Positions 7,263 through 38,212 of a DNA stretch of 64,000 nt are shown one piece after another (position 1 is the stretch's first letter; the number at the start of each line of letters is the position of its first letter). The position numbers and the translations under genes are program-made. Under the pieces are notes generated by a model. That model was not told the origin of the DNA, did no database searches, and saw only the letters and a list, made by a program, of their open reading frames with translations. This DNA comes from Muribaculaceae bacterium (GTDB lineage Bacteria > Bacteroidota > Bacteroidia > Bacteroidales > Muribaculaceae): NCBI GenBank assembly GCA_017391675.1, contig JAFOXR010000012.1, positions 1 to 64,000 on the forward strand, in the 5' to 3' direction.

Positions 7263-7288
7263 AGAAAACAATAAAAACAAAATTGATT

Positions 7289-8158: not shown

Positions 8159-8182
8159 GCAAGGTCGGTATAACTAATGGAC

Positions 8183-8215
8183 AAAGGGTGAGCATGTTTT
8201 ATGACTCACCCTTTT
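8183..8215 (+). terminator. Rho-independent terminator after the esterase gene
   Basis: A ten-base stem (8183-8192 with 8205-8214) closes a 12-base loop and ends in TTTT. It lies 25 bases after the esterase stop, between convergent genes, and may also serve the leftward hydrolase gene. Confidence 0.8.
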
Positions 8216-8263
8216 AAGTTCAAAATAAGACTAGTTCATGCCTAAGCACACTGCCGTTACATA

Positions 8264-9310
8264 TTATTTATCACAAACGGTTTTATACTGTGACTTGCAG
8301 AATGACAGAATGCGGTTAGCCACTTCATAGACCTCAGCTACACTGGCATTGCAGAAACTATGACGGAGTCGCTTGAATCGCATCATCTTTGCCTCGACTC
8401 CACACTTTCTCAACTCCACAAACATCTTGAGCGACTGGTCAATCTTCACCGTCGTATCGGCAGCTCCATGCATTATGAGTGTGGGACAGCAGTCCTTGCT
8501 CACATAATTTATAGGCGAGAACTCACGGCAAAGCATCATCACACGCTTCTTCTGCGTTTCTACATCAAACCCTGTCACGCATTTCAGTTGCCTGTTGCGC
8601 TTCATGATGACTTTGCGAACGCACAATTTGGCGAATGCGGTCATGAAAGGATTCAAGTCGGTGCGGAATAATGTATTCAAGTCAGTAGGACCATAGGTAT
8701 CTACCACATACTTTACCTTAGCCGGGATATTGCTTAGCTCGGGAGAACCTTTGTAACGCTCCTCGCCGGTATAGGCAGTCATCATTGCCAGCTGTCCTCC
8801 TGCCGAAGCTCCCCATATCCCTATATTGCCTGCATCAAGCCCATATTCCTTTCCATGAAAACGCACCCAGCGCACAGCATCTTTACAGTCGGCAATCTGA
8901 TGCTGAATGTGGCTCATGCCATTGTTGGCTAGACGGTAATCAACGCTCACCACAGCAAACCCATTACGATTAAGAGTGCGCAGAACATACTGGCGGAAAG
9001 TGCGCTTGATATTGTTCTTGCTCGCCTCAACCCATGAACCGCCATGAATAAACAGCAGTACTGGTGCCAGGCGTGCCTCGGCATAAGGCTTCTCAGGCAA
9101 ATATATATCGAGATGAAGACGCGTTCCATCAACCGTCTTGTATACAACATTCTTATATGCAGGATAATCCTCGCCAAGTTTAGGCAGCGAACTGGCAGTG
9201 GAAGCATAAGCAGAACCAAGTTTTGACGATGCGTAATAAATTACCATTCCCGCACCCAGTCCCGTTGCTAATAACCACTTTTGCCTTTGCGACAAGCTAA
9301 TGTTTCCCAT
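8264..9310 (-). CDS. Alpha/beta-hydrolase fold esterase/lipase (HSL-like)
   Basis: The 348-residue protein has one N-terminal hydrophobic segment (about 12-30), probably a membrane anchor or uncleaved signal. An esterase domain follows, with the HGGSW oxyanion motif of hormone-sensitive-lipase/BD-FAE-type enzymes, the nucleophile motif GASAGG, and a distal HGAADTTVK (acid) and LRHSF (histidine). The substrate is unknown; acylated sugars or lipids are plausible. It is a single gene with its own well-formed promoter at 9333-9364 on the minus strand. Confidence 0.83.
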   Translation of the reverse strand: MGNISLSQRQKWLLATGLGAGMVIYYASSKLGSAYASTASSLPKLGEDYPAYKNVVYKTVDGTRLHLDIYLPEKPYAEARLAPVLLFIHGGSWVEASKNNIKRTFRQYVLRTLNRNGFAVVSVDYRLANNGMSHIQHQIADCKDAVRWVRFHGKEYGLDAGNIGIWGASAGGQLAMMTAYTGEERYKGSPELSNIPAKVKYVVDTYGPTDLNTLFRTDLNPFMTAFAKLCVRKVIMKRNRQLKCVTGFDVETQKKRVMMLCREFSPINYVSKDCCPTLIMHGAADTTVKIDQSLKMFVELRKCGVEAKMMRFKRLRHSFCNASVAEVYEVANRILSFCKSQYKTVCDK

Positions 9311-9332
9311 AATCCTAATGTTTTATATTATA

Positions 9333-9364
9333 CAAATTTAGTGAGAAATAGTTTTTCTTCCAAA
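9333..9364 (-). promoter_or_regulatory. Near-consensus Bacteroidetes promoter for the lipase gene
   Basis: On the minus strand a TTTG (9361-9364) and a TAAATTTG (9333-9340) are separated by 20 bases, the typical -33/-7 spacing. The start codon is 22 bases downstream of the -7 element. Confidence 0.75.
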
Positions 9365-9414
9365 TTTACATTTTCATATTCCTCTCTATATTATACCAAT
9401 ATGGTAAAAATAGC

Positions 9415-9422
9415 TATATTTG
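9415..9422 (+). promoter_or_regulatory. Bacteroidetes -7 element very close to a start codon
   Basis: TATATTTG ends only four bases before the ATG at 9427. Transcription would begin at or next to the start codon, so the DUF5106 lipoprotein mRNA may be leaderless. Confidence 0.6.
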
Positions 9423-9426
9423 TAAC

Positions 9427-10317
9427 ATGAAAAAGTTACTCCTATTTATCTCGATAATCATAGCCGTTGCTTCTTGCAGCAACTCAGGAAACAAAGCAGG
9501 CAACAGTCATCAAGGAATACAGATACCTGAAGCTGACAAGAAGGCTCATCTCATGAACATGGCCAACGGATTCTGGTATGGAATTGACTTCTCCGACAGT
9601 ACTCTGTTTGAACAGGAACAGCAATTTATGCCTGCATTCGCTCAATGGGCCGACATGGCACTGGCTTTATACTATGAATATGGCGAAATAGTGAGCAAAA
9701 CGCCTGTAGAGCTAACCATGAATAACAGCAAAGCATTGGTTTGGCTGATGAATATAGCCGATGAATGTTTTCGAAATCCTAATTCGCCCTTCCGTTGCGA
9801 AGAGCTGTACATACCCATGCTAGAAGCTGCAATCAACAGCAATGCTGATGATTTATATAAAGAGGTGTACCAGGAGAGACTGGCCAAAGCCCTTAAGAAC
9901 CGCAAAGGTACTGCGGCTGCCGATTTCTCTTATATCACCGAGAACGGCGAAACGGGAACGCTGCACGGCATTCACGCCAAGCATACTATCCTGTATTTCT
10001 TTAACCCCGATTGTCACGACTGCGCAAGAGTGAGCGAAATCATAGGCAATGACTCCACTATTAGGGAAATGGCAGGTTCTAAACAATTAAGCGTTCTTGC
10101 CTTGTACCCCGACAAAGACATGACCGCCTGGAACAAGCACTTCGGAAAGTGGCCTAAAGAATGGATTACAGCCAGATATGCCGACCTGGCAGAAAAAGAG
10201 AAATATGATCTTCCTGCAATCCCGAACATTTATCTGCTTGACGAAAATAAAACCGTTGTGCTGAAGGACGCAGCTATCGAAGAAATCATTGACCACCTGA
10301 ACTCTCGCACAAAATAA
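9427..10317 (+). CDS. DUF5106-type lipoprotein with thioredoxin-like domain
   Basis: The 296-residue protein opens with a lipoprotein signal (hydrophobic residues 3-14, lipobox VASC near 17). The first half is a helical DUF5106-like region. The second half is a thioredoxin-like domain with the redox motif C-H-D-C in FFNPDCHDCAR and a cis-proline-like segment LPAIPNIYLLD. It should work as a membrane-anchored disulfide oxidoreductase in the periplasm, as related TlpA/ResA-like proteins do. The ATG lies directly behind a TATATTTG element. Confidence 0.82.
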   Translation: MKKLLLFISIIIAVASCSNSGNKAGNSHQGIQIPEADKKAHLMNMANGFWYGIDFSDSTLFEQEQQFMPAFAQWADMALALYYEYGEIVSKTPVELTMNNSKALVWLMNIADECFRNPNSPFRCEELYIPMLEAAINSNADDLYKEVYQERLAKALKNRKGTAAADFSYITENGETGTLHGIHAKHTILYFFNPDCHDCARVSEIIGNDSTIREMAGSKQLSVLALYPDKDMTAWNKHFGKWPKEWITARYADLAEKEKYDLPAIPNIYLLDENKTVVLKDAAIEEIIDHLNSRTK

Positions 10318-10318
10318 A

Positions 10319-11005
10319 TCACTTGCAACCCATAGGTACCGGTTCTACAAGCGACATCAAGCGAAGAATCTGCCCTTTTCTCTTTATAATATAGGAAGAA
10401 GGCCGAGCTGAATCAAACTTTAACGGATTGGGAAGAGTTGCGGCTATAAGAGCACATTCGCCACGGCTTAGTTTAGAGGCCTTTTTCCCGAATTTCTCCT
10501 GAGCAACAGCCTCCACACCATAGATGCCGTCACCCATTTCAATGGAATTGAGGTAAATTTCCATTATCCGTTCCTTGCCCCAAAGCAATTCTATAAGTAC
10601 AGTAAAATAGGCTTCCAGACCTTTCCTCACGAAACCTCCGCCATTCCACAAGAATACATTCTTTGCCGTTTGCTGCGAAATGGTACTGGCACCTCTGTTA
10701 CGCTTGCCCCTTTTTGCTTCGTCTATAGCCTTCTCTATCTGGTCCAGATCAAAGCCGTTATGCGACATGAACAAATTATCCTCGCTAGCCACTACCGCTT
10801 GCGGCATGTTATGAGTGATTTCATCTATCGGCACCCATTTGTGTTTCATTCTGTATTCCTCACCAGCATTGTTCTGCTCTACAAGGCGAATGACCATAAG
10901 CGGAGTTATGTACACAGGCACATAACGATATAGAACCACTGCCAGAATAGTGGAGCCAAAAAACAATATGAGTATTTTCTTCAGTATATTCCAGATAAAT
11001 CCCAT
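10319..11005 (-). CDS. mtgA: Monofunctional peptidoglycan glycosyltransferase
   Basis: The 228-residue protein has one N-terminal membrane segment (about 8-30) and a family 51 glycosyltransferase domain. The catalytic glutamate is E75 in the ASEDNLF motif, followed by [12 protein letters not shown] and a [13 protein letters not shown] motif. It polymerises lipid II into glycan strands at the periplasmic face of the inner membrane and lacks a transpeptidase domain. It is the last gene of the leftward RsmI-MBL-MtgA run (18-base gap). Its stop lies one base from the convergent DUF5106 gene stop. Confidence 0.93.
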
Positions 11006-11023
11006 AGCTTGAGATTAAGCAGA

Positions 11024-12055
11024 TTATTCACCGCGACGCAACACAAACCATGGCGAACATTCATAACGAGGTAACGCCATAAGCTGTATATCCTTGCCTC
11101 TATCCTCTAGCGTACCCATAGCATCGCCCACTGTCACGCCGCGCGATTCCAATGCACTGCGCACAGCATCAATAGCCTTTTCGGGGGTATTATTGTCGTT
11201 GCTTAGATGGCACAAGAAAATATTCTTGAGTTTTGAAGTATACATTTCACCCACAAACTTTGCCGTATCGGCATTGTCAAGATGACCGGTAGTTGTCTTT
11301 ATGCGGTTCTTGAGATATTCAGGATAAGTACCGTTTTCCAGCATTTCCAAATCGTAATTAGCCTCTATCATAAGGAAATCGGCTTGTGTCATATAGTGGC
11401 GCGCACGCTCTGTCACCTCACCAAGGTCGGTAGCAATAGCAAATTTATTCTCACCATACTCCACAAAGAATCCTGCATTGTCAAATCCGTCATGAGGCAC
11501 TTCAAAAGCCGTAATCGTCAAATCGCCAAGTTTGAATGGAATTTCCTTAAAAATCGGCTGATGATATTCCTTTATGCGTCGTGACACATTATGGCGTTTC
11601 AGGATTCCATTCAATACGCGGTTTGTGCAATAGATGCGTATGTGCTTATACTTGCGGGCTATTGCATAGGCATAGCGAATGTGATCGCCATGATCGTGGG
11701 TGAGGCACACGCCATAGACCTGATCGGGGCGCACTCCGTTGGCCTTAAGGGTTTCAAACACACTGGCATGGTCCACTCCGGCATCGATAATGATACCGCC
11801 TTTTTCAGTACCCAAATAGGCACAGTTTCCGCTGCTGCCACTCCCGAAACTGATAAAGCGAAACGAGGGTGCAGCTTTTACTGATGTCAATGCCGAGAAC
11901 GCCTGCGCGTCATCTTCGGCTACTTTTTTCTCTTCGGTTGGAGCCTTTGCTGGCTTAACCTCAAAATCGGCAATAACCTCTTTTTCTACAGACTTTTCTT
12001 CTGCGAAAAGATTATATTGCGCTCCTGAATTTATGTTTTTATATCTAGTCATCAT
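11024..12055 (-). CDS. MBL-fold metallohydrolase (YycJ/WalJ-like) with N-terminal extension
   Basis: The 343-residue protein has a metallo-beta-lactamase domain from about residue 66, beginning FGSGSSGNC, with zinc motif HDHGDH at 120-125, then an EANYD and a C-terminal LCHLSNDNN motif. This pattern is typical of YycJ/WalJ-type cytoplasmic hydrolases or nucleases. The first 60 or so residues are a charged, Glu/Lys/Ala-rich extension not found in the core family. It overlaps the RsmI-family gene by four bases (ATGA). A second ATG lies one codon downstream. Confidence 0.85.
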   Translation of the reverse strand: MMTRYKNINSGAQYNLFAEEKSVEKEVIADFEVKPAKAPTEEKKVAEDDAQAFSALTSVKAAPSFRFISFGSGSSGNCAYLGTEKGGIIIDAGVDHASVFETLKANGVRPDQVYGVCLTHDHGDHIRYAYAIARKYKHIRIYCTNRVLNGILKRHNVSRRIKEYHQPIFKEIPFKLGDLTITAFEVPHDGFDNAGFFVEYGENKFAIATDLGEVTERARHYMTQADFLMIEANYDLEMLENGTYPEYLKNRIKTTTGHLDNADTAKFVGEMYTSKLKNIFLCHLSNDNNTPEKAIDAVRSALESRGVTVGDAMGTLEDRGKDIQLMALPRYECSPWFVLRRGE

Positions 12056-12759
12056 TTATAAAGCAAGAAAATAGTGGGAACCTTGTCGTAGTCATACTTT
12101 GCCTTGCCCCACTCTGCCACTCCACGGGTGACGATACTTTCTTGCGCGCCAGTGATGTCGCTTGCCACACACAACTTAAGATGCTTTGGCAATGTGCGCG
12201 CCATCTCGGCTATTAATTTGTTATTGCGGTAAGGTGTCTCGATAAACACCTGAGTCTGGTCGTTAACACGGATATTGAACTCCATGTCCTTGAACTTCTT
12301 TGCCCGAGCCGATGCATCTATTGGCAGATAGCCCAAGAACGCAAAGCTCTGTCCATTAAATCCAGAACCCATTACCGACATAAGAATACTTGATGGTCCA
12401 ACCAACGGCACTACCTTCAGCGACCTGCGCTGTGCTATCGCTACCACATCGGCTCCGGGATCGGCTATTGCAGGACAACCGGCTTCCGAAATCACACCCA
12501 TGGGCAGCCCTTGCTCCAAAGGAGCTAAATAGCCCGATATCTCCTCTGCCTTTGTGTGACGGTTCAGTTCATAGAAAGAGAGCGTGTCTATATCAATATC
12601 ACGGTCACACTTTTTCAAAAATCGGCGCGCCGAACGCACATTTTCCACGATGAAATGCTTGATTTCTTTCACTATTTCAATATTCCGGGCAGGAATCACC
12701 GCGCTGAGTTCTCCTTCACTCAACGGCACTGGAATCAAATATAGTGCAGCCTCTAGCAT
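12052..12759 (-). CDS. RsmI-family SAM-dependent 16S rRNA methyltransferase
   Basis: The 235-residue protein belongs to the tetrapyrrole-methylase fold. Motif SEAGCPAIADPG at 91-102 and the GPSSILMSVMGSGF segment correspond to RsmI, which methylates the ribose of C1402 in 16S rRNA. The N-terminus (LYLIPVPL) lacks the usual LYVVATPIGN and fits the shorter Bacteroidetes variant of the family, so the exact substrate is inferred. It is the first gene of an operon with the MBL hydrolase and MtgA. Confidence 0.8.
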   Translation of the reverse strand: MLEAALYLIPVPLSEGELSAVIPARNIEIVKEIKHFIVENVRSARRFLKKCDRDIDIDTLSFYELNRHTKAEEISGYLAPLEQGLPMGVISEAGCPAIADPGADVVAIAQRRSLKVVPLVGPSSILMSVMGSGFNGQSFAFLGYLPIDASARAKKFKDMEFNIRVNDQTQVFIETPYRNNKLIAEMARTLPKHLKLCVASDITGAQESIVTRGVAEWGKAKYDYDKVPTIFLLYK

Positions 12760-12838
12760 ATTCTATTGTTTTAACGGGAAAATCGGCATTCTGGCCTAGC
12801 ATATGACACCATACACACCTTGTATTCCTAATTTATTA

Positions 12839-12846
12839 CAAAATTA
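12839..12846 (-). promoter_or_regulatory. Probable promoter of the rsmI-like/MBL/mtgA operon
   Basis: Minus-strand TAATTTTG matches TAnnTTTG, with a GTTG (12867-12870) 20 bases upstream as -33 element. The leader would be about 75 bases. Confidence 0.5.
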
Positions 12847-12911
12847 CAACCTTTGAACCAATCATGCAACTTTTTCTTTATGCCGTTCTTTCTTTCTGCG
12901 CACAATATGTG

Positions 12912-12919
12912 TATCTTTG
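12912..12919 (+). promoter_or_regulatory. -7 element of the RsmF-like gene
   Basis: TATCTTTG lies 29 bases before the ATG at 12949. No clear -33 TTTG is visible. Confidence 0.6.
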
Positions 12920-12948
12920 CGTAGAAATAACCGAAGAGATATAACAAT

Positions 12949-14349
12949 ATGGCACTTCCCGAGCTATTCATTAAGCAAATAAACGAGCTTCTTCCCGAGA
13001 ATGAAGCAAAGGACCTCATTTCAGCCCTTGGCGAAAGCGAACCCTCCGTATCGGTTCGTGTCAATGCCGAAAAATGCAATCACACGAAATTGCATTCCAC
13101 CTCCGTGCCATGGTGCAATCTCGGTTTCCACCTGGAAGAACGGCCGCAATTCACATTTGACCCTATGCTGCACAGCGGCTGCTACTATGTACAGGACGCT
13201 TCTTCAATGTTTCTGGCTCATGCCATCGATAAACTGGTTGACAAGTCGGCTCCAGTCAAATATCTCGACCTTTGTGCAGCACCTGGAGGGAAAACAACTA
13301 CAGCTATTGGAGCACTTCCTAAAGGTTCGCTCGTCGTAGCAAACGAAATCATGAGCGGCAGAGCTCAGATTCTTCGCGAGAACATAATCAAATGGGGAAG
13401 TCCTTATTGCGTGGTTACCAACAACGATTCAGCCGCCTATTCCAGACTTACCGAATTCTTCGACATCATTGCTGCCGATGTGCCATGCAGCGGTGAAGGT
13501 ATGATGAGAAAAGACGAGGAAGCTGTTACGCAATGGACTCCGGTGCTCGTAAAAGAATGTGCTGAGCGACAACGAGAAATTGTCGATAACGCATGGCAAG
13601 CACTTCGCCCTGGCGGCATTCTCATTTACAGCACCTGCACTTTCAACCGGCCAGAGAATGAAGACATCATAGAATATCTTGTGAATGAACTTGAAGCTGA
13701 AAGCCTTGACTTGCAAGTGCCAGAAGAATGGAACATATATCCGTCTATCAATTCGGCCACACACGGCTACCATTTCTTCCCTCACCGCACACGAGGGGAA
13801 GGACTTTTCCTCGCTGCAGTAAGAAAACCAGCCACTAGCACTGGAAATGCTCATAAGTTGCTAAACAAGAAAAAGAACAGCAAGAAAGGCAAAGCGTTGC
13901 CCATTCCCGCCGAACTGAAAAAATGGATTTCGGCAGACTGCAGTTTTCAGATAGTTTCCAACGGGGACTCATTCAACGCGATTCCGGCTGAATTTACCGA
14001 TGAAATCGGCTTTTTACAAGAATCTCTTAAAGTGATTTATTGCGGCTGCGACATTGCAAATTCTAAAGGTAAAGACTTGATTCCTGCACATGCGCTAGCT
14101 ATTAGCACATGCATCAACAAAGACTTGTTCCCATGCTACGAAGCCGACTATGCCACAGCTATAGCCTATCTGCGCGGCGAAACGATAACCATTGATGCGC
14201 CTCGCGGTTATGTAATGATAGCATACAATGGGCACACCCTAGGTTTCGTGAAGAATCTCGGCAACAGAGCAAACAACCTCTACCCCAAAGAATGGCGCAT
14301 CAAGAGCACACATATACCCTCAACTCCACCGCAAGTAATAATAAAATAG
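12949..14349 (+). CDS. rRNA cytosine-C5 methyltransferase (RsmF/RsmB-like)
   Basis: The 466-residue protein has an NOL1/NOP2/Sun methyltransferase core. SAM motif LDLCAAPGGKT is at 106-116, motif IV DVPCSGEGMMRK contains C180, and motif VI YSTCTFN contains C230, the catalytic cysteine. A Lys-rich linker (about 300-315) leads to a C-terminal RsmF-type RNA-binding domain with a GYVMIAYNGHTLGF segment. RsmF makes m5C1407 in 16S rRNA; which cytosine this protein modifies cannot be told from sequence. Single gene with its own TATCTTTG promoter. Confidence 0.88.
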   Translation: MALPELFIKQINELLPENEAKDLISALGESEPSVSVRVNAEKCNHTKLHSTSVPWCNLGFHLEERPQFTFDPMLHSGCYYVQDASSMFLAHAIDKLVDKSAPVKYLDLCAAPGGKTTTAIGALPKGSLVVANEIMSGRAQILRENIIKWGSPYCVVTNNDSAAYSRLTEFFDIIAADVPCSGEGMMRKDEEAVTQWTPVLVKECAERQREIVDNAWQALRPGGILIYSTCTFNRPENEDIIEYLVNELEAESLDLQVPEEWNIYPSINSATHGYHFFPHRTRGEGLFLAAVRKPATSTGNAHKLLNKKKNSKKGKALPIPAELKKWISADCSFQIVSNGDSFNAIPAEFTDEIGFLQESLKVIYCGCDIANSKGKDLIPAHALAISTCINKDLFPCYEADYATAIAYLRGETITIDAPRGYVMIAYNGHTLGFVKNLGNRANNLYPKEWRIKSTHIPSTPPQVIIK

Positions 14350-14355
14350 TTGGTG

Positions 14356-16230
14356 CTACAATTTTCGCAATACTAATTTAGAAGAATAGCAATCATTCAT
14401 TGCATTTATAAGAATGTTATATTCATGAACTTTGTTTCTGTCATAAAGACCTGATTTAAGAGTAAATTCATGAATAATAATAATTGAACCATTCGTTTGC
14501 CTAACTTCAGCTTTTATTTTACCAAAAACATTTTCCAACTCAATATTTTTAGGTAATGATTCAATAATTATATTTTCTGGTAATGATAATGAAATTGTAT
14601 CACATTGGCTAAAACCATATTTAACATCAATATCTGAAGTTCTTTCTTTACTAATCCTATTAAATTGATACCTGAATGGATTCGCTTGAACAAAATATCT
14701 ATTACCTGTCTTTGTTCCATACTTATAAGCATCAGCTCCGATATTTATTTTAATTTTCGGACATTTATCTCCAGATTTTTCAACATGAGTATCAGTTATA
14801 ATAATATTCGGGATTGAAACTCGCTTAAGAAACTCATTCTCAATATCGTCATTATTCAACCCTGCTATAATATCATATTCTCCCATTGAGCAAGTACGAT
14901 TAATCTCAAAATTTGTGCTACCGTCAGATTTTATTGAAATATTAATAGCTTGACAATCTTTATTTAAACTATCAGGAGATTCAGGCAATGTTTCAACACA
15001 TGTTCTATCACCATCAATTACAACTGCATCATGTCCATTTATTTGATTATGAATAAAACCAAAAGGTAATTCGGAATTGGTACATTCCAACCACAATATT
15101 TCCTTTCCCAAAATCACTTTAAGTATAGCATGATCAGTGGTGGCAAGTGTCACACTGTTTTTGTCCAGTTGTTTGTTTTTAGTACTGATGAAAGCCAGAT
15201 TGGATTTTATTCCGATTTCTTTTAGCATGCTATAAAGAAAAAATGATAAGGCCTTGCAGTCTCCGAATTTAGTGTTATAAACCTCTGTTGCGCTCATTGG
15301 CTGAATGCCACCTATCCCTACTTGAATGCTAACATAACGACAATTCTTGCACATATATTCATATAACAGTTTCACTTTTTCCCTGTTGGATGTTAGGGTA
15401 TCGGTAATCTCGTGCACCTTGTTTTTTAAATCTATCGGCAATACATCTCTCTCTTTAATTATAGAATCAAACCAAATGCCAAAATTACCCCATGTGTCAA
15501 AACATGCTATTTTATTATCATATTCACACTTCATTGGAGTAACATACATTTCGCTGCTTATCTGAGGTATATATCGGTCTGCTATAACAGCAGGCACACC
15601 TTTAATCTCCCATTGATAACTTTCAAGATTTGATTCTGAAGGTATTTTTCTTTTGCTCAACACTCGCCCCTTGTATATAACATCAAAATCAACACCCAAA
15701 GGAACATTAAGGATATAGGACGCATATTGAACCGAGATTCCTCCTTGATTTGGGACAGCATCAAAAACGGGATAACTAGCAATAAAATCTTGTAAGGTCT
15801 TCTTGTATTCATATTCAATTGTACAAGGAAGTGCATATGCTGGTAGTGTTATATAATAATGCGCCACATCTGTTGCAAGATGAGATGATATCTCGCTATA
15901 TTTAAGATCTGATTTCTTAAAACTTCTTATCAATTTACCTTCGCGATCATAAACTCTAGCTGAAAACGATTTTAGTGATTCAAATTTTGATACCGCTGTT
16001 ATAAATGATAGAGCACCAAGCCCATAATCATCTAATACAGTAATTGCTTTTTTATACTCTACTTCAGCTCTAGTCAACGATTTAACCGTAACATCATATT
16101 CCACATGACGCATAACTAAATGACTGCCATGCAGCAATGAATCCGGTATATTAGAGACTGCATACTCTTGTGATAAAGATTTTACAAAAGCACAACATAA
16201 TACAATTACAAATAACAATAATCTTTTCAT
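14356..16230 (-). CDS. Exported DUF3857 + transglutaminase-like protein, active-site type
   Basis: The 624-residue protein has a signal peptide (about 1-20), an N-terminal DUF3857 beta domain (about 25-230) and a transglutaminase-like domain. The catalytic cysteine is present (C325 in FGDCKAL), as is the histidine (H367 in TTDHAILK). The third position is glutamate in WLECTNS rather than the usual aspartate, as often in this subfamily. Function is not established; periplasmic peptide cleavage or crosslinking is possible. It lies 6 bases downstream of a paralogue that lacks the catalytic residues. Confidence 0.82.
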   Translation of the reverse strand: MKRLLLFVIVLCCAFVKSLSQEYAVSNIPDSLLHGSHLVMRHVEYDVTVKSLTRAEVEYKKAITVLDDYGLGALSFITAVSKFESLKSFSARVYDREGKLIRSFKKSDLKYSEISSHLATDVAHYYITLPAYALPCTIEYEYKKTLQDFIASYPVFDAVPNQGGISVQYASYILNVPLGVDFDVIYKGRVLSKRKIPSESNLESYQWEIKGVPAVIADRYIPQISSEMYVTPMKCEYDNKIACFDTWGNFGIWFDSIIKERDVLPIDLKNKVHEITDTLTSNREKVKLLYEYMCKNCRYVSIQVGIGGIQPMSATEVYNTKFGDCKALSFFLYSMLKEIGIKSNLAFISTKNKQLDKNSVTLATTDHAILKVILGKEILWLECTNSELPFGFIHNQINGHDAVVIDGDRTCVETLPESPDSLNKDCQAINISIKSDGSTNFEINRTCSMGEYDIIAGLNNDDIENEFLKRVSIPNIIITDTHVEKSGDKCPKIKINIGADAYKYGTKTGNRYFVQANPFRYQFNRISKERTSDIDVKYGFSQCDTISLSLPENIIIESLPKNIELENVFGKIKAEVRQTNGSIIIIHEFTLKSGLYDRNKVHEYNILINAMNDCYSSKLVLRKL

Positions 16231-16236
16231 ATGCTG

Positions 16237-18189
16237 CTAGATTCGTTTAAATACAATTTGACTTGTAGCAAATTCTGTCAACAAATCAAAGAAGCCACTT
16301 ATATTTGGTATGAAATCTTGATGAATATAAATCTCATTTTCTTGAATGTCCATAATGATTGAGATCTTTCCTTTCCCATCATCTTTTGTATAGTATGATA
16401 AAGACAAGGCTCCATTACAAGCTGTTATTTTACTGTTCTCGGGTGTTTCAACAAGTTTGTAACCATTTGGAATCTCAACTTCAGTAATGAATTTGTATGT
16501 ACCTCGGTAAGGGAACTCTACAGGCATAGTGCGATTACCCCCTTTAAAGGGATTATCAGTCATTATTGGGAATGGGAACGAACTAATATATAGCATACTA
16601 TCGGCAACTATGACATCTTTAGAGAACGATATGATTTCAGAACTTCGTAATGACATACGATTGTGAACATTTATGCTATCAATTTCAACTTCATACTTTT
16701 TTTCAACCGCTTCACAGTATTCCGAATTGTCTTTGCAATTGTCATAATTGGCATTAAATGTATACACAAATTGATTTGAATAAGCATTAGTACAAGTGCC
16801 TTTTAATTTTCCGTCACTTGAAATCTTTGCTTTTACATAACTTGTCATATTGTTTTTCACCAGTTTTGTCAAGTCAATCCATTCCCCCAAGCCATTGGGG
16901 TCGTAAAGTCTTGCTCTATCAACAAGCAAATTAGTAGGCAGCACATTATAATTTGAAAAAATACTAGCCCCATCTAAATAAACATGGGAACCGTTTGGCA
17001 GATTAACTCTAATGATAAATGTTTCTATTTTATCTTGAGAGGCATGAGTGAGAGGCAAACGCCCCTGTTCTCTTGTAGACATCAACACCGCCGACACATT
17101 ATACCCTGCATCTCTCAAAGCCCCGGCTAACACAAAATTCTTATCAGCACTACTACCCGCTCCATCTTTTACCACTTTAGAAATATTCTCCGATAAAAAA
17201 CGACGCGTTCCATCCCATTTTATTTTGTTCTGAACAAGTCTTAATATTTGAGTTATACGCTCTCTGTCATTACCTTCGGTCTTTGCAATAATTTCTGCGA
17301 CCTCAGCTTTATATGGATTTTTTGTTTTGAATTGAGAATTAAACTCACTATTTTTTATTGCATTATTTACATCCGCCCAATCCACCGAGAAATTTTTCTT
17401 ATACATAGGCATGTCAATTGCAGTTATTTCATAATCAATACCTGCACGATGATCATTTATACACCACACATAAGGCTCTTTTTTTAGTGCAGGCATATCT
17501 GAAATAGAAAATTTCATAACCTCATTGGCATAACTTATGTCTGTTCCCGGTATAGTTATATTTTCTACATCTCTTACAAGATTTAGTCTTTCATGCTGCT
17601 TCAGATTGGAGTTAAATCTAAAATACTCTGGAATAGAGACTTCCATATAACTTGATTTTATAGGAATATGGGTTTGAAAATAAAGTACAGGAACATTATA
17701 AATATAATCAGAAGTAATCTTATACTTGTATTCTATCACAGTTCCCGCTTTTACTTGAGGAATAGAGAATTTGCGACGATACCTTGATTCGGACAGTTTC
17801 TCAGTCGTCATGTATTTTTTATCCAATGACGCTTTAACAATTTTTCCATTTTCTATATTATATGATGTAGCATTGAATCCAGAAATATATTCTTTCAAAT
17901 GCGGTGTTTCATAATAATAAAATTCCACATCTCCCCACTCTTTTCCTGCTTCTTTTAAAATTTTTATTTTCCGCGACACCTCTGTTACTAGCTTAAAGTC
18001 ATTAACATTTATGCTATAGTATACCAGAATCTTTTCATTTAACACAACCGCATCGGCCTCAGTGTCTTTATCGTATGTACTCATTTCAATTTCTTCCTTA
18101 GAAACTTTGCCGAACTTATACCCTTGAGCAAAAACATGTAATGGAGTAAGGCCAAATAACAATACCAAAATAGTAACCACTGTTTTCAT
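16237..18189 (-). CDS. Exported DUF3857 protein with degenerate transglutaminase domain
   Basis: Starting at the ATG at 18189 (MKTVVTILVL) gives 650 residues with a clean signal peptide ending at VFAQ. The frame is open to 18291, but that stretch contains the promoter. Domains: DUF3857 (about 50-250), transglutaminase-like (about 290-430) and a C-terminal DUF3858-like beta region. The expected GDCKDK motif reads GSSADK, so the nucleophile position is S347, and the usual histidine motif is replaced by IETFIIRV. It should be a non-catalytic partner or binding protein. First gene of a two-gene operon with the active paralogue downstream. Confidence 0.8.
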   Translation of the reverse strand: MKTVVTILVLLFGLTPLHVFAQGYKFGKVSKEEIEMSTYDKDTEADAVVLNEKILVYYSINVNDFKLVTEVSRKIKILKEAGKEWGDVEFYYYETPHLKEYISGFNATSYNIENGKIVKASLDKKYMTTEKLSESRYRRKFSIPQVKAGTVIEYKYKITSDYIYNVPVLYFQTHIPIKSSYMEVSIPEYFRFNSNLKQHERLNLVRDVENITIPGTDISYANEVMKFSISDMPALKKEPYVWCINDHRAGIDYEITAIDMPMYKKNFSVDWADVNNAIKNSEFNSQFKTKNPYKAEVAEIIAKTEGNDRERITQILRLVQNKIKWDGTRRFLSENISKVVKDGAGSSADKNFVLAGALRDAGYNVSAVLMSTREQGRLPLTHASQDKIETFIIRVNLPNGSHVYLDGASIFSNYNVLPTNLLVDRARLYDPNGLGEWIDLTKLVKNNMTSYVKAKISSDGKLKGTCTNAYSNQFVYTFNANYDNCKDNSEYCEAVEKKYEVEIDSINVHNRMSLRSSEIISFSKDVIVADSMLYISSFPFPIMTDNPFKGGNRTMPVEFPYRGTYKFITEVEIPNGYKLVETPENSKITACNGALSLSYYTKDDGKGKISIIMDIQENEIYIHQDFIPNISGFFDLLTEFATSQIVFKRI

Positions 18190-18219
18190 GTGACTTGAAT
18201 TTATAATGTTAATAATGTA

Positions 18220-18250
18220 CAAATATAAGAATATGCCTAAAAAAAACAAA
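18220..18250 (-). promoter_or_regulatory. Near-consensus promoter of the DUF3857 pair
   Basis: Minus-strand TTTG (18247-18250) and TATATTTG (18220-18227) are 19 bases apart, matching the Bacteroidetes -33/-7 layout. The -7 element lies inside the long open frame and so supports the downstream start at 18189. Confidence 0.75.
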
Positions 18251-18324
18251 GTTTCACACAAAAAATATTCATACGGCAGATTAATACACAACCTTTAATG
18301 AATATGCTGAAATAATCATAATAC

Positions 18325-18352
18325 ATAAAAAAAGCGATGCAATGCATCGCTT
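18325..18352 (-). terminator. Terminator of the branching enzyme gene
   Basis: An eight-base stem AAGCGATG/CATCGCTT (18332-18339 with 18345-18352) is followed, reading leftward, by a run of Ts (A run at 18327-18333 on the plus strand). It lies 22 bases past the glgB stop. Confidence 0.85.
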
Positions 18353-18373
18353 CAATAAACATTATATTTCTTA

Positions 18374-20449
18374 CTATTTCTTTTTCTTTGATGTCGTTTT
18401 GCTTGCCTTCTTGGTGATTGGCTTTGCCGCTGGTTTACGCGCTTTTTTCAAGCGAAGCACCTGGGCTGTGCGGGCAGGAAGGTATAGCTTCAACCAACTT
18501 ACGCCATACTTACTGTACAACTCATCATGCTGAGTGAAATGCTTCACATCGTCACTGATATTTCCATGACCGCCAAACTCTAGTGAATCGGAATTCATAA
18601 CACCCGAATATTCTCCTTCAGGCGCCAAGATTCCATAACCGGTGAATGATTTTACAGGATTGAAATTGAACACGAACACCAAGTCACCACGCTTGAATGC
18701 AAGCACCTGGTCATCGTCTTTTTCCCATAGCTTTTCTACCGGCTGTTTCTGGAAATTACGCTTTCCGCCTATAAGTCCTATCATGGCATTGTCGAACGCA
18801 TTCAAGTATTTATATTTCAAATCCTCTCTGTCAACAAGGTCCCATTGACGGCGAGCATACTTATAGGACCAGCCATTTCCTTCGCGAGGGAAATCAATCC
18901 ATTCGGGATGACCGAATTCATTTCCCATGAAGTTGAGATATCCGCCGTTGATTGTAGCGCATGTCACCAGTCTTATCATCTTGTGAAGCGAGATACCTCT
19001 ATCTACATTCATATTATCATCGCCCACCATCATATGCCAATACATATCGCTGTCTATCAGGCGGAAAATCAATGTCTTGTCACCCACTAGCGCCTGATCG
19101 TGACTTTCGGCATAGCTTATTGTCTTTTCATCGGCACGCCTATTGGTGAGTTCCCAGAAAATAGATGTCGGGTGCCAGTCTTCATCTTTCTTTTCCTTTA
19201 TGGTCTTAATCCAGTAGTCTGGAATACCCATTGCCATACGGTAGTCAAAGCCCATACCTCCCCACTCGAATTTAGTGGCCAGCCCTGGCATACCGCTCAT
19301 TTCTTCGGCAATAGTTATTGCCTTAGGATTCACTTCATGAATCAGTTTGTTGGCAAGCGCAAGATAGGTTATGGCATTAGTGTCCTGACCGCCATTGAAA
19401 TAATCTTCATATCCGCCAAAGGCTTGTCCCAGTCCGTGATTATAGTACAGCATTGATGTGACGCCATCAAAACGGAATCCGTCGAAATGATATTCTTCTA
19501 GCCAGAACTTGCAGTTTGACAGCAAGAAATGCATCACTTCATTCTTACCATAGTCGAAGCACAAAGAATCCCATGCCGGATGCTCTCTGCGATCGTCGCC
19601 ATAGAAATACTGATTATAACTTCCGTCGAAACGGCCTAGACCTTCCACTTCATTCTTAACAGCATGAGAATGAACGATATCCATAATCACGCTTATTCCC
19701 ATTTCGTGAGCGGAATCAATAAGATGCTTAAGTTCTTCAGGTGTACCGAATCGGCTAGAAGCAGCGAAGAAACTGGATACATGGTATCCGAAAGAGCCAT
19801 AATAAGGGTGTTCCTGGATAGCCATTATCTGAATAGCATTGTATCCATCGGCTTTCACGCGAGGAAGCACTTTTTCCCTGAACTCGTCATAAGTTCCCAC
19901 ATCTTCCTTATTCTGCCCCATTCCTATGTGGCATTCATATATAAGCAATGGCGATGTATTAGGTTCAAAACCGGCATCGGTGAATTCATATCCATTATCA
20001 GGCGCCCACACTTGAGCCGAGAAGATATATGTCTTTTCGTCTTGAATGACTCTTGTTGCATAAGACGGGATACGCTCGCCGTCACCGCCGTCCCAATACA
20101 CATGCAGTTTGTACAAGTCGCCGTGCTTTATAGCATCGGCAGGAAGTGACACTTCCCAAACTCCATTATCCTTACGCTCAAGGCTATACTTTTCGCTTTC
20201 AGTCCAACCATTGAAAGTTCCCACCATAACGATTCTGGTAGCATTTGGTGCCCACTCGCGGAACACCCAACCATTTGCATTACGATGAAGACCGAAGAAA
20301 TGATGTCCGTTAGCAAAATCGCTAAGCGTACTTGTCCCTCCCGTTAATTCCTGTTCTTTACGCAACGCATCTTCATGGCGACCTTCTATAGCTTCACGAA
20401 AAGGTTCTAGCCATGGGTCATTTTTCAAAATCTGAAGTTTTCTTTTCAT
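18374..20449 (-). CDS. glgB: 1,4-alpha-glucan (glycogen) branching enzyme
   Basis: The 691-residue protein has an N-terminal CBM48-like beta domain (EWAPNATRIVMVGTFNGW near 70-90), a GH13 catalytic barrel and a C-terminal all-beta domain. The nucleophile is D328 in GFRFDGV, the acid/base is a Glu of AEEMSG (382/383), and the transition-state motif is SHDQAL. It cuts alpha-1,4 chains and rejoins them as alpha-1,6 branches. The layout resembles eukaryote-type branching enzymes (GH13_8). The last 30 residues are a Lys/Ala-rich tail of unknown role. It is transcribed alone. Confidence 0.93.
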   Translation of the reverse strand: MKRKLQILKNDPWLEPFREAIEGRHEDALRKEQELTGGTSTLSDFANGHHFFGLHRNANGWVFREWAPNATRIVMVGTFNGWTESEKYSLERKDNGVWEVSLPADAIKHGDLYKLHVYWDGGDGERIPSYATRVIQDEKTYIFSAQVWAPDNGYEFTDAGFEPNTSPLLIYECHIGMGQNKEDVGTYDEFREKVLPRVKADGYNAIQIMAIQEHPYYGSFGYHVSSFFAASSRFGTPEELKHLIDSAHEMGISVIMDIVHSHAVKNEVEGLGRFDGSYNQYFYGDDRREHPAWDSLCFDYGKNEVMHFLLSNCKFWLEEYHFDGFRFDGVTSMLYYNHGLGQAFGGYEDYFNGGQDTNAITYLALANKLIHEVNPKAITIAEEMSGMPGLATKFEWGGMGFDYRMAMGIPDYWIKTIKEKKDEDWHPTSIFWELTNRRADEKTISYAESHDQALVGDKTLIFRLIDSDMYWHMMVGDDNMNVDRGISLHKMIRLVTCATINGGYLNFMGNEFGHPEWIDFPREGNGWSYKYARRQWDLVDREDLKYKYLNAFDNAMIGLIGGKRNFQKQPVEKLWEKDDDQVLAFKRGDLVFVFNFNPVKSFTGYGILAPEGEYSGVMNSDSLEFGGHGNISDDVKHFTQHDELYSKYGVSWLKLYLPARTAQVLRLKKARKPAAKPITKKASKTTSKKKK

Positions 20450-33171: not shown

Positions 33172-33181
33172 AATATTTCTG

Positions 33182-33310
33182 TCAAAAATCAAGATATTCT
33201 TCTGGTTTCTTTTGTACAGTTTGCAGTGTACCTTGCAATGAAGCTTTTAGTGAGTTTCGTTTTGAAAGACAAATAGCAACTCTTGTTTCTTCAAGAACAA
33301 ATTTTACCAT
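33182..33310 (-). CDS. 42-residue coupled small ORF at the end of the ATPase-NOV operon
   Basis: The ATG at 33308-33310 overlaps the stop region of the coiled-coil gene (ATGGTAA), a typical translational-coupling arrangement. The 42-residue product begins MVKFVLEETRVAIC and ends KKPEEYLDF; it is soluble, basic in the middle and has a plausible amphipathic helix. I recognise no family. It could be a third component of the islet or the start of a decayed gene. A chance ORF of this length is possible. Confidence 0.45.
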   Translation of the reverse strand: MVKFVLEETRVAICLSKRNSLKASLQGTLQTVQKKPEEYLDF

Positions 33311-34161
33311 TTTGCAATTTTCTCTATCAGATTATCACTTATATTCGTACGCTTTTTTTGAATTTCTTGAAGAGTTTTCTCAATAAGAGTTTTTTCTTCT
33401 TTAATGGTTTGTAAATGCTTGTTAATTTCGGATAAATAAACATGTAGCTTTTCTATCTTTTCGTTTCTTCTTTTTATTTTTAGGTTAAGATTTTTAATTT
33501 CACTTTTATAAGTATTTGATTGAGCGATAAATTTACTTTTATACTCATTATATTCTTTTGCCAAAAGTTCTTTTGAATTTTCTATTTTAATACATTTTTC
33601 TTCAAGAAGATTCATCTCAACATTCTTTTTTGTTAGAGTACCTTGAGTTTTCTTTATTTGACTTTCTAATTTACCCTTCTCTTTTTGAATCTTTTGTATT
33701 TCCGCTTGAAAATGAGTAATAGAACTTTTTAATTCTTCTGTCATTTTTTTGTTGTTTTCTAATTGCAATAATAGATTTAGATTTTCAGATTCAGATATTT
33801 TATATTTATTATCACTTTCACTTTTAGAGGTCTCTAGTATTTCGATTTTCCTATTTAAGTCACTTATTATCCTATCTTTTTCTAGGATTAGCTCTTTATT
33901 CAATTCTCCATCTTCAATCAGTTGCACTAATTTCTCTTCTTGAGTCTTACACTTTGAAGAAACATCCGAAATTTCGTTTTGGGAGACTATTAAATTGCTG
34001 TGTGCGGTCCTATATAATCTACCATATTGTTCCTTTTTCTTCCATATTACCAGCAATATGAAGAAAAGAATAATAAATGCAACGACAACCAATGCAATAA
34101 ACCAATATGGCAAGCGTATGTGACATGTGGCAAGTATCCAATATAAATCCATTATACTCAT
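33304..34161 (-). CDS. Membrane-anchored long coiled-coil protein of the ATPase-NOV islet
   Basis: The 285-residue protein has one strong membrane segment near the N-terminus (about 18-41, then a KKK stop-transfer). From about residue 55 to 275 it is a charged, Lys/Glu/Asn-rich heptad-type coiled coil, with no enzyme motif. It should stand as a cytoplasmic rod on the inner membrane. It begins 12 bases after the stop of the large ATPase gene and so is likely co-transcribed and functionally tied to it, for example as a membrane tether or sensor. Composition is clearly A+T-rich. Confidence 0.75.
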   Translation of the reverse strand: MSIMDLYWILATCHIRLPYWFIALVVVAFIILFFILLVIWKKKEQYGRLYRTAHSNLIVSQNEISDVSSKCKTQEEKLVQLIEDGELNKELILEKDRIISDLNRKIEILETSKSESDNKYKISESENLNLLLQLENNKKMTEELKSSITHFQAEIQKIQKEKGKLESQIKKTQGTLTKKNVEMNLLEEKCIKIENSKELLAKEYNEYKSKFIAQSNTYKSEIKNLNLKIKRRNEKIEKLHVYLSEINKHLQTIKEEKTLIEKTLQEIQKKRTNISDNLIEKIAKW

Positions 34162-34173
34162 AATTATTGTTAT

Positions 34174-37100
34174 TTAAAATAAGTGACCCTTAAACATATA
34201 TATGTCTTGTTGTGGTTTATCAACGCCGAATACTCTGACAATGATATACGATTTGTCATCCGATTCATTATACTTCTCAATCATTGTTAACTCGCGATAA
34301 CTAATTGGGAGATTTTCCTGAAATTGTTTATCCCATGTAGTAGCTTTGACTTCTACATACATTTGTACCCCACTATTAGTCATGAATGATATATCATACT
34401 TCTCATAATTGGGTTTGCAGAAATATGTCTTACCATTTATTGTTATCTCATGCGTATAGTCATCCACTGTAGAAAGAGAAAGACATTCCGGATGATAGCC
34501 CATAGAAATCAACTTTTCATAAACTATTATTTCTCCTTTGAAGCCTGTTATTATATTCCGCTCTTGCGCAGATTCATCTGGATGGTAGTCTATGGTTATG
34601 TTAATGGTTCCACTTCCAGGAACGCTTTCCTCCTCAATTAAGGAGACATCATATCCTTTATCCGCTAAATTCTGCTTAATACCATCAATAGTTTCAATGA
34701 ACATGATGAACATCTCACGCTCTTTACCCTTTATACCCAAATATTTACATAGAGGCCCTAATAATGGTTCTATATTAGCTGGGCGCAAATCACCGATATA
34801 GTAAAACTCGTTCCGACTGCCAAATGTATGTTTCTCGATAACATCATCTGAGTCTCCATATGTCAGCTTAATCCTTTTACAATGGAAGAAATATGTATCG
34901 TCTATCAACTCTACTAATTTACTTTTATTGCTACGATACAACTCCTCATCTGCATTTTCGCCTGATGCTAATAAGGACAATGCTCCCACTTTCTTTCTTA
35001 GAATACTCTTGAGTTCATAACTCTCTTCCTTAGACTCAAATTCCGCATTTACGCTATCCCAAGTGATTATCTTCACACCCATTAGAGAGAGTAATTCAAT
35101 TACTTTCTCTCTGTTTGATGGACTTCCGATATAAACACGATTTTTAGAACTAAATCCATCTAAGGTAATATGACTTAATTCTGCGGGAGAAACAAACTCA
35201 TTCTCTTTTGAAAGTATTCTATTAACTGCTGCCCATTCACGTATCAGGTTTCGTGATTTCTCAGACTCCAAACAGCCAAACTCTATCATTTTTTGATAAA
35301 TAGAACAAATTCTTGTCTTATTATTTTCAACATTCCCCAAATCATCTGAAATTTCAGTTAACAAAAAGAGAAAATCCTCTAATGTTAAATGATTTTTCAG
35401 GTTCAAATATGATTGCCACGCATCGGATATTTCTTCATCAACATCAATAATTGGTAAATATTTACCAGCAATCTCCTTTATTTGAGGGATTGAGTTACTA
35501 TAAGTATCAATAGCCTTTCGACAATCTTTGTTAACTGTAGGCAATATAGGAGAGTTTTCTATGACCCATTTAAAGTGGTTCATATCGCATCCTAAATTGG
35601 ATAGCATATTCTGAGTAATACTCCTTGTTACAAACCCAGTTTTGCCAGTTACATTCTCAACACTCGTGTTAATTTCACTAGGTTCGTATTTTGAAAGAAT
35701 TTCAGAAAATACAAGTTTTGAAAAAAGGTAATTTTCACAATGAACTAAAAATGAAAAAGAACCATATGCAATTTGATTTGCATAGAAATCATATTCACCT
35801 GAATCTAAATTCCAACCATCATATGAAATCCATTTGTATCTTTCTGAGTTTTTCTTAATAATGTCAAAAAATGGCTTATCATAACGGTTGCCATATTCTG
35901 TACCAGAAAAGCCTGATACAATTTCAATTTTATTTGCCACATTTTCGCTTACGCCCATTTTAAGTAAGAACACTTTCCACTCTGCTATGGATGCATTTTC
36001 GCAGTACTTTTCAGAAATGAAAATATCTGCTTCAAGCAATGGCTCAATGTTTACTTCTGGCTTATATTTTGCACTTAAATAGAGCTCGTTGGCAGATTTA
36101 AGTGTACCATTTGCCGTTAAGAAACCGACATTACTAAGTCGATATTGAGATATTTCACCAAATATATCCTCTCTTTGAGAAATATCAAAAATAAACTTAC
36201 CAACTTCAAGAGCATTTTCAGTCGTCACATATCCACTTTTACATAGCACATTTTCAATGAAAGTTAAATCTGACAACTGACCAAGTCCTAATATCGACAA
36301 CCAATTAACAATAGGCTGGTTAGAGGAAATAGCGCCAAAAATATCTGAATTGAGAATTTTGGTATCTTCGGCAAGTGCATTATGTTCCTTATACGACGAA
36401 GGAAAAAATAGTTCATTAGGCATGCATAACACGCCTGATTCATCCAACAAAAAACGGGTGGTTTGCAATACTGAAATTAACTCCTCCTGCTCCGACCTAT
36501 TCTGAAAATAATATTCAAATAAAAATTTAATTAGTTTTGCATTAAACTCAGGGGTTATGCTCTCAAATGCACATTCATCTTCAAACAAGCTCTTGAGTTT
36601 TTGCTCGTCAAAAATAAACACTCCATAGCTGTTTAGTATTCGACTACCTTTCCTGACATTCTCTATCTGGTTATTTGCATCAAATGTTCGAATATATGTT
36701 CTATTAATATGGTAGACTAGCGCATCAACAGATATAGAAGCAGAAATACTCATTCGATCCATAAATGCTTCGGAAGCCAGTAGCTTATCCATGCCATTTT
36801 TTAGGCACGGAATAAATGCGATCTCATTGATTGCTTTCTCCATATTTTCCGTGTATATGGTTTCTAACGCATTGCTCCTACCATAAGATTTTTCAGGCAG
36901 TACTTCCCAATAATTTCGATATACGGACGAAATTTCCTTAATCCAAAGTAGAAATTCTGAAGGAATCTTTGAAAAAATTAATTTATTCCACTCTGAATCC
37001 TTATGCAGCTGCTGACGACCAGCATCAGTAATAAAGTTCGCGTTTACTAAAAACGGAAACCCTTCTGATCCAAAACGGAATGATGTCGGCAGATATGTAT

Positions 37101-38034
37101 AAATAACAGACTCCTCACGCTCCAACCTCTTCAACTTACCATTTTTATCTAATGCAATAGCAAAAGAAAGATCAAAAGTTTTAGCTTCTTTTAGTTTGTC
37201 TGGAGTGCTAATGTCTGCATTTATTAATCCCCTCAAATTTTCGGGAACTAAAACACTTTCATTAGTATGGATAAGCCATCTGCTTTCTTCAACGCCATTA
37301 GCAGAGAGAACCACGACTCCATTATTTTCGGATTTATCTATCCAATATTTAATAGTTCCATTGACAATAAATGACATCCTTATATTCTTGCTTTTCAAAA
37401 ACAGCAAGAACTGGCTATTAGAGAGCAGTGTTGAAATTTTATTCGCCAAATTTGAACTGTCGCCAATCTTAATATAGGTAACGACATTGTAGCCTTCGGA
37501 ATCAACTTGTATTGGGGCATCCGTCTCAATAGGGATTATCTGCCAAGGCATTAGATATCTTTTATCGCTATCTTTTATGCCATATTCATCTTGGTTCCAA
37601 TGAAGATCCCAATAATTGTCCCAATGAGATTTATCAAACTTGAAACAATAACCGCCAGATTCTACAACGACATGATTGGAACGCATAAAAACGGATTTAA
37701 AACCAATACCCTTGTATCCGATTTTCTCCACACCCTTCATCTTGTTGCCATTGCCCACATCACATAAACCCTCTATATCTCGGTCTGTAAATGCATCACC
37801 ATTATGCATGAAGATGAATTGTCCATCTTCTATAATCATCTTAACATCAAGGACGTTTGATTCATCGCTATGAGCATCAACTGCATTTTGCAGTAGCTCA
37901 AAAACGAATCTCTCTTCTTCTGTATAAATACCTGACGACAATAGTATCAAGCTATTTGCCTGACTGGTCGCCTGGTCGGGGTGATTATAATTACAGCGTT
38001 TTTTTTGTAAGGTCTGAATGAAATTAGAAACCAT
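34174..38034 (-). CDS. Hsp90-like ATPase with C-terminal NOV/DUF3883 nuclease-like domain
   Basis: The 1286-residue protein opens with a GHKL/Bergerat ATP-binding domain of the sacsin type: N box ELLQNAVDA with N50, HNGDAF at 77-82, and the glycine loop IGYKGIGFKSVF at 105-116. About 900 middle residues have no motif I recognise. The C-terminus is a NOV_C/DUF3883 domain with PD-(D/E)XK-like residues E1168, D1214 and E1228-x-K1230 (EVKATT). This layout resembles plant NO VEIN and bacterial proteins often seen near defence genes. It is cytoplasmic, A+T-rich and has an unusual Shine-Dalgarno site. An ATP-driven nuclease or DNA-sensing role is inference. Confidence 0.85.
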   Translation of the reverse strand: MVSNFIQTLQKKRCNYNHPDQATSQANSLILLSSGIYTEEERFVFELLQNAVDAHSDESNVLDVKMIIEDGQFIFMHNGDAFTDRDIEGLCDVGNGNKMKGVEKIGYKGIGFKSVFMRSNHVVVESGGYCFKFDKSHWDNYWDLHWNQDEYGIKDSDKRYLMPWQIIPIETDAPIQVDSEGYNVVTYIKIGDSSNLANKISTLLSNSQFLLFLKSKNIRMSFIVNGTIKYWIDKSENNGVVVLSANGVEESRWLIHTNESVLVPENLRGLINADISTPDKLKEAKTFDLSFAIALDKNGKLKRLEREESVIYTYLPTSFRFGSEGFPFLVNANFITDAGRQQLHKDSEWNKLIFSKIPSEFLLWIKEISSVYRNYWEVLPEKSYGRSNALETIYTENMEKAINEIAFIPCLKNGMDKLLASEAFMDRMSISASISVDALVYHINRTYIRTFDANNQIENVRKGSRILNSYGVFIFDEQKLKSLFEDECAFESITPEFNAKLIKFLFEYYFQNRSEQEELISVLQTTRFLLDESGVLCMPNELFFPSSYKEHNALAEDTKILNSDIFGAISSNQPIVNWLSILGLGQLSDLTFIENVLCKSGYVTTENALEVGKFIFDISQREDIFGEISQYRLSNVGFLTANGTLKSANELYLSAKYKPEVNIEPLLEADIFISEKYCENASIAEWKVFLLKMGVSENVANKIEIVSGFSGTEYGNRYDKPFFDIIKKNSERYKWISYDGWNLDSGEYDFYANQIAYGSFSFLVHCENYLFSKLVFSEILSKYEPSEINTSVENVTGKTGFVTRSITQNMLSNLGCDMNHFKWVIENSPILPTVNKDCRKAIDTYSNSIPQIKEIAGKYLPIIDVDEEISDAWQSYLNLKNHLTLEDFLFLLTEISDDLGNVENNKTRICSIYQKMIEFGCLESEKSRNLIREWAAVNRILSKENEFVSPAELSHITLDGFSSKNRVYIGSPSNREKVIELLSLMGVKIITWDSVNAEFESKEESYELKSILRKKVGALSLLASGENADEELYRSNKSKLVELIDDTYFFHCKRIKLTYGDSDDVIEKHTFGSRNEFYYIGDLRPANIEPLLGPLCKYLGIKGKEREMFIMFIETIDGIKQNLADKGYDVSLIEEESVPGSGTINITIDYHPDESAQERNIITGFKGEIIVYEKLISMGYHPECLSLSTVDDYTHEITINGKTYFCKPNYEKYDISFMTNSGVQMYVEVKATTWDKQFQENLPISYRELTMIEKYNESDDKSYIIVRVFGVDKPQQDIYMFKGHLF

Positions 38035-38044
38035 ATTCTTTTTG

Positions 38045-38053
38045 CCTCCTTTT
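38045..38053 (-). promoter_or_regulatory. Strong Shine-Dalgarno site of the ATPase-NOV gene
   Basis: Minus-strand AAAAGGAGG lies ten bases before the ATG at 38034. Other genes in the window mostly have A-rich leaders without such a site, so it stands out and may reflect transfer from another lineage. Confidence 0.6.
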
Positions 38054-38064
38054 GTCAGAATATT

Positions 38065-38077
38065 GTATTGTCAATAC
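38065..38077. promoter_or_regulatory. Palindrome in the leader of the ATPase-NOV gene
   Basis: GTATTG and CAATAC flank one central base. The site lies just downstream of the promoter element and could be an operator or a small RNA hairpin. No matching regulator gene is adjacent. Confidence 0.35.
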
Positions 38078-38094
38078 TTGGGCACAAATATATA

Positions 38095-38102
38095 AAAGGG
38101 AT
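38095..38102 (-). promoter_or_regulatory. -7 element of the ATPase-NOV operon
   Basis: Minus-strand TATATTTG matches the consensus and would give a leader of about 55 bases that contains the palindrome and the Shine-Dalgarno site. Confidence 0.6.
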
Positions 38103-38212
38103 TGCAGTTTCACGAAGAAATCTCCTAAATTATGTAATTTTCTTGTGAAGTTTTACACAACTTTTAGGGTTCTCTTCATTTTTAGGTAAAGCCTATTTGT
38201 TGTATCTTTGCA

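Follow-up and report, generated by a model that had tools for sequence, protein, structure and literature searches.

An inserted, probably horizontally acquired islet was identified in the window (the whole 64,000-nucleotide stretch of Muribaculaceae DNA analysed here). A profile match spanning nearly the entire protein identifies its largest gene as homologous to TmtA, from the previously named Tiamat system. The initial annotation had proposed a possible new defence-type system: the defence assignment is well supported, but the system is not outright new, as the relationship to TmtA had been missed. We regard the islet as a new variant of Tiamat and not as a new system. It is probable (roughly 55%) that it constitutes a Tiamat-type anti-phage module, in which an ATP-operated clamp with a nuclease domain would be tethered to the membrane by a partner protein. 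The features of the islet, with the evidence used to define them, are as follows.

33172..38207, no strand: whole inserted islet, the interval from the O-methyltransferase gene to rbfA (empty sites in relatives, GC)
34174..38034, minus strand: tmtA-like gene, 1286 aa (ORF, Pfam, PADLOC, conserved residues, regional identities, trees, blastn)
35238..36200, minus strand: segment with ancestry unlike its flanks, codons ~612-932, candidate recognition region (regional identities, trees, blastn)
34174..34557, minus strand: NOV/DUF3883 (PD-(D/E)XK-like) domain, codons ~1160-1286, with E1168, D1214 and E1228-x-K1230, grouping with L012 and not with L019 (Pfam, conserved residues, regional identities, trees)
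33304..34161, minus strand: partner with a membrane helix and coiled coil, 285 aa, ending E-K-I-A-K-W (ORF, periodicity, tail comparison)
33182..33310, minus strand: ORF of 42 aa, probably what is left of a SLFN_AlbA_2/HATPase_c_4/wHTH gene intact in L012 (ORF, match to L012)

Location and insertion of the islet

The islet is bordered by an O-methyltransferase gene, which ends at position 33171, and by rbfA, and contains three ORFs (of 1286, 285 and 42 residues), all oriented leftward. Its GC content is 0.334, whereas pieces of the same size from the remaining window average 0.43; the leftward A+T-rich islet annotated between these two genes is thus confirmed. Inspection of the same site in relatives revealed that the islet is absent from G002, a genome of the same genus (17 bp between the O-methyltransferase and rbfA alignments), and from G007, of the same family (spacing of ~20 bp), a distribution that is not housekeeping-like. 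In G001, a third genome of the genus, the same O-methyltransferase gene is followed by a different gene, encoding 407 aa (L045, 2233-3456); the contig stops there, and this insert is seen only partly. The site therefore takes varied cargo. G001, G002 and G007 yielded no TmtA copy of comparable strength, and among 99 relatives searched only one other genome carries a near full-length homologue of the large protein. The islet is thus an insertion, probably acquired by horizontal transfer.

The TAnnTTTG box is a promoter element of Bacteroidota. The minus-strand DNA located 5′ of the large gene includes TATATTTGTG and the stretch ahead of rbfA includes TATCTTTGCA; since both resemble this box, the islet probably forms a separate transcription unit. 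A sigma-70 promoter scan of the region gave scores not above those of shuffled sequences, and an Rfam search of the region matched no family. Another A+T-rich stretch (GC ~0.34), with two long leftward genes (~624 and ~684 residues), is located at positions 14356-18291 of the window.

The TmtA-like protein and its relatives

The 1286-residue protein matches the PADLOC TmtA profile PDLC03972 along residues 3-1137 (1047 bits, E=0). It is composed of (i) an Hsp90/sacsin-type ATPase (residues 37-142), (ii) a conserved scaffold extending to ~600, (iii) a recombinant middle (~612-932), (iv) a second conserved region (945-1155) and (v) the NOV/DUF3883 domain (~1160-1286). Within the N-terminal part, Pfam recognised SACS (residues 37-117, E 2.8e-10) and NCBIfam a sacsin ATP-binding-like domain, while N50 and most of the loop 105-116 (IGYKGIGFKSVF) of the Bergerat motifs do not vary among relatives with as little as 36% identity. 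Structure models of the two halves, each built from 5 alignment rows, are of low confidence, and the Hsp90-like part alone is usable: although of poor overall quality, the model of residues 1-599 matches structures of Hsp90 (best E 1.7e-4) and of the Grp94 N-domain (E 9.0e-4, prob 1.00). The domain, the conserved motifs and the model bear out the earlier reading of a Bergerat ATPase.

At the C-terminus, Pfam NOV_C was matched at residues 1211-1274 (E 2.7e-5, above the family cut-off), and E1168, D1214, E1228 and K1230 are the same in all five compared sequences, down to 36% identity. DUF3883 was described in an earlier survey as a novel REase domain (PMC3710099). In the model of the C-terminal half (pLDDT ~50) the order of the elements fits a nuclease, and the PD-(D/E)XK matches (RecU, I-Ssp6803I) are not significant. 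The nuclease-like assignment made at first inspection is carried by the motif and the family, which point to a nuclease-like domain with putative activity, while the model is of too low confidence to establish the fold.

Six close TmtA members were found: the protein of the window, L019 (75% identical; from an IMG/VR contig that also encodes a phage terminase), L012 (66%; from the cecum of dairy cattle), L013 (62%; from Segatella baroniae), L014 (54-55%; from an uncultured member of the Bacteroidales) and an incomplete copy in genome G1465 (L055/L056). Two of them have surroundings related to defence or to phages. In L013 the TmtA gene has a reverse transcriptase gene of AbiP2 type (E 2.1e-163) on one side and a Tmn-like gene on the other; this defence island of S. 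baroniae (6321-19785) comprises the reverse transcriptase, TmtA, the coiled-coil partner, an XRE regulator, a Fic-like gene and the Tmn-like gene. The TmtA gene of L019 (3495-7289) resides on a 7.5 kb phage contig, beside terminase large-subunit and head-tail adaptor genes. Searches of viral contigs for more phage-borne copies of TmtA or its partner returned L019 again or nothing, and plasmid and phage records yielded distant partial matches only. Similar small XRE-type regulators, missing from the window, are encoded downstream of the TmtA/coiled-coil pair in L012 (14378-14662) and L013 (12824-13117), and may represent a control gene. In genome G1565 a TmtA relative is split into two frames at approximately residue 176 (L057 and L059) and is probably a decayed copy.

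Comparison of 15 family members, a small sample with no correction for kinship, revealed that the fused NOV domain alternates with a helicase gene beside the TmtA-like gene. Ten members contain a fused NOV domain: the window, L012, L013, L014, L019, L026, L027, L029 and L031 (recognised by Pfam or as close homologues) and L024 (recognised by its motif). No adjacent SF1 helicase gene was found beside these ten in the neighbouring DNA examined; L027 ends at a contig border, so one may be present there. Conversely, in the remaining members (L025, L028, L030, L032 and L033) no NOV match was obtained and the next gene downstream encodes an SF1 helicase, which in L030 and L033 includes a PIN domain. 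At least two switches are needed on the residue 1-560 tree, where two of the five helicase-type members are represented. In this sample the fused NOV domain and the neighbouring helicase appear mutually exclusive, as expected of alternative effectors, and the alternation hints at which part of the system acts as the effector. In L033 three genes stand in a row (8046-13691) behind a 2284-aa sacsin-like gene: a helicase-PIN gene, a reverse-transcriptase-like gene, whose start resembles the reverse transcriptase of L013, and an AlbA-type gene similar to that of L012.

The coiled-coil gene and the 42-residue ORF

The second gene begins 12 bases after the tmtA-like gene. In its 285-aa product a single strong membrane helix precedes a region with a strong 3.5-residue periodicity (24.9, shuffle maximum 17.4), so the reading of this gene as a single membrane helix with a coiled coil is upheld. 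Basic residues following the helix place the coil, by prediction, in the cytoplasm. Matches of the protein to JetC, LmuB, SMC and others in PADLOC and NCBIfam were discarded as coiled-coil background.

A partner gene is located directly downstream (3-12 bases) in four of the six close TmtA members (the window, L012, L013 and G1465), which span three genera. Partner length ranges from 200 to 315 residues, and the three partners found outside the window are 20-52% identical to the one within it. All four retain the N-terminal helix and terminate with NLIEKIAKW, NIIEKLAKW, NPFERLANW or NPFERLVNW, i.e. with the consensus E[KR]-x-[AV]-[KN]-W, despite the varying length of the coil. In the window and L012, but not in L013 and G1465, the codon of the final W shares bases with the start codon of the following ORF; this overlap therefore cannot account for the conservation of the residue. 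In L014 the place of the partner is taken by an acetyltransferase-TPR gene, in L019 the ORF following tmtA lies on the opposite strand, and the partner gene is absent from all distant TmtAs seen. A survey of homologues, suggested at the outset, thus found the coiled-coil gene conserved next to most close members but not next to distant ones, so the family as a whole does not depend on it. No description of a coiled-coil partner of TmtA was found in the literature searched, the original Tiamat paper lying outside that search.

This distribution must be weighed against other explanations. PADLOC and DefenseFinder class Tiamat as a single-gene system, and the TmtA of the islet might likewise act alone, with the coiled-coil gene as an independent accessory sharing the operon in one lineage. 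The members devoid of the partner, including the phage-borne L019, are consistent with this explanation, but across three genera four members keep the position of the partner and both its ends, even where identity of the coil falls to ~20%; we consider this explanation somewhat unlikely. Less likely still is that the coiled-coil protein acts as a membrane effector, with TmtA sensing infection and triggering membrane damage, or as a restraint that keeps TmtA inactive. The fixed order of sensor and membrane protein genes would suit such a role, and membrane effectors are common in abortive infection. However, a single helix with a long coil would make an unusual pore, TmtA has a nuclease-type domain of its own, and the two close relatives without the partner (L014 and L019) argue against an obligatory antitoxin.

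The 42-residue ORF, which overlaps the stop codon of the 285-aa gene, had been considered a possible, coupled third component. L012 has a 554-residue gene in this place, encoding SLFN_AlbA_2, HATPase_c_4 and winged-helix domains, and its start overlaps the stop of the partner gene just as in the window. Both ORFs begin at the same place, and the tail of the short one matches the 3′ part of the L012 gene in the same frame (33/41 bases identical; a score reached by 0/1000 shuffles). From this one short match, the ORF is likely a deletion remnant of a third gene and was set aside as a component; of the proposed pair or trio, the pair is kept.

Mosaic ancestry, proposed mode of action and comparison with known systems

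Regional comparisons of the large gene revealed sharp changes in relatedness along its length. DNA identity between the window and L019 is 82-97% in codons ~80-560, 38-55% in ~640-920 and 87-98% in ~960-1155. Codons 612-932 gave no blastn alignment to L019, L012 or L013, while both sides align. Within residues 680-840, L012, L013 and L019 are mutually 55-67% identical, whereas the window shares 26-29% identity with them. In regional trees the window groups (i) with L019 for residues 1-560 (97/97) and 945-1155 (99/99), (ii) with the distant L024 for residues 680-860 (93/92), where its grouping with L019 (p 0.002) and with the close clade (p 0.021) was rejected, and (iii) with L012 for residues 1155-1286 (98/97), where grouping with L019 was rejected (p 0.017); the groups were picked after the identities had been seen, so these p values are indicative. 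With a wider cut (560-945) the window joins its own clade weakly (55/33) and grouping with L024 is rejected (p 0.0005), and the L024-like piece is therefore probably confined to the core. By these identities and trees the protein is a mosaic, its flanks being mostly nearest to the phage-borne L019, the core of its middle (residues 680-860) grouping with a distant lineage and its NOV domain with a third source. General hypervariability of the middle across TmtAs was not supported, the distant pair L026/L029 having similar branch lengths in the middle and elsewhere. The mosaic ancestry demonstrates recombination, not what the segment recognises; it nevertheless points to a ~320-residue stretch as the candidate specificity region, and we consider this recombinant segment the most useful new observation of the analysis.

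An Hsp90-like stress chaperone with no anti-phage role, which the Hsp90/sacsin-like N-terminal fold might suggest, is very improbable in view of the patchy insertion, the phage- and island-borne relatives, the nuclease-type domain, the membership in the TmtA family and the recombinant middle. Assembly of two strains into a chimera, conceivable for a fragmented metagenomic draft of 86 contigs, is likewise a very improbable explanation of the mosaic, as the reading frame is open across both segment borders, identity of the flanks to L019 is 82-98% and thus short of 100%, and no other record closely matches the middle.

In the favoured model of a membrane-tethered Tiamat-type module, the TmtA-like protein would operate as an ATP-driven clamp. 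A phage-derived cue met by the variable middle (~612-932) would change the shape of the Hsp90-like ATPase and so set free the C-terminal NOV/DUF3883 nuclease, which would then cleave nucleic acid. The coiled-coil protein, encoded on the same transcript, would hold the clamp at the inner membrane by its N-terminal anchor, docking on TmtA through its conserved W-ended tail. The initial idea of an ATP-gated, membrane-tethered nuclease or sensor is thereby kept as a proposal for the pair. If the partner is conserved and membrane-bound, Tiamat-type defence would here be sited at the cell envelope. More tentatively, the islet may represent a two-protein, membrane-tethered Tiamat subtype, in which intragenic recombination exchanges the middle recognition segment of the clamp-like ATPase separately from the nuclease domain, the wider family trading the fused NOV for a separate helicase or helicase-PIN effector.

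Several known systems share features with the islet. In the Shield protein ShdA a long coiled coil adjoins a single transmembrane helix that precedes it (PMC11090510), an arrangement also found in the 285-aa protein; however, the RmuC nuclease domain of ShdA was not matched in the latter by Pfam, and the 285-aa gene adjoins TmtA rather than a Type I RM system. The islet protein shares a sacsin-type ATPase with sacsin and plant NO VEIN, and a C-terminal NOV_C with the latter, but it is bacterial and has an insertion-type distribution; the DnaJ and HEPN domains of sacsin were not matched in a Pfam search of the large protein. The pairs of a sacsin-like ATPase and an SF1 helicase(-PIN) of Bacteroidota (L025, L028, L030, L032 and L033) likewise form a two-gene unit with a related sacsin/TmtA-like protein, but their effector-like part is a separate helicase, in some cases with PIN, instead of a fused NOV domain. 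The closest counterpart is Tiamat itself, a widespread system whose mechanism is given as unknown (PMC10482375, PMC12926258). TmtA shows near full-length homology to the islet protein, including the N-terminal HATPase; the islet clade differs by (i) the adjacent membrane coiled-coil gene, (ii) a NOV domain lying beyond residue 1137, where the profile match ends, and (iii) in the islet protein, a middle segment exchanged by recombination.
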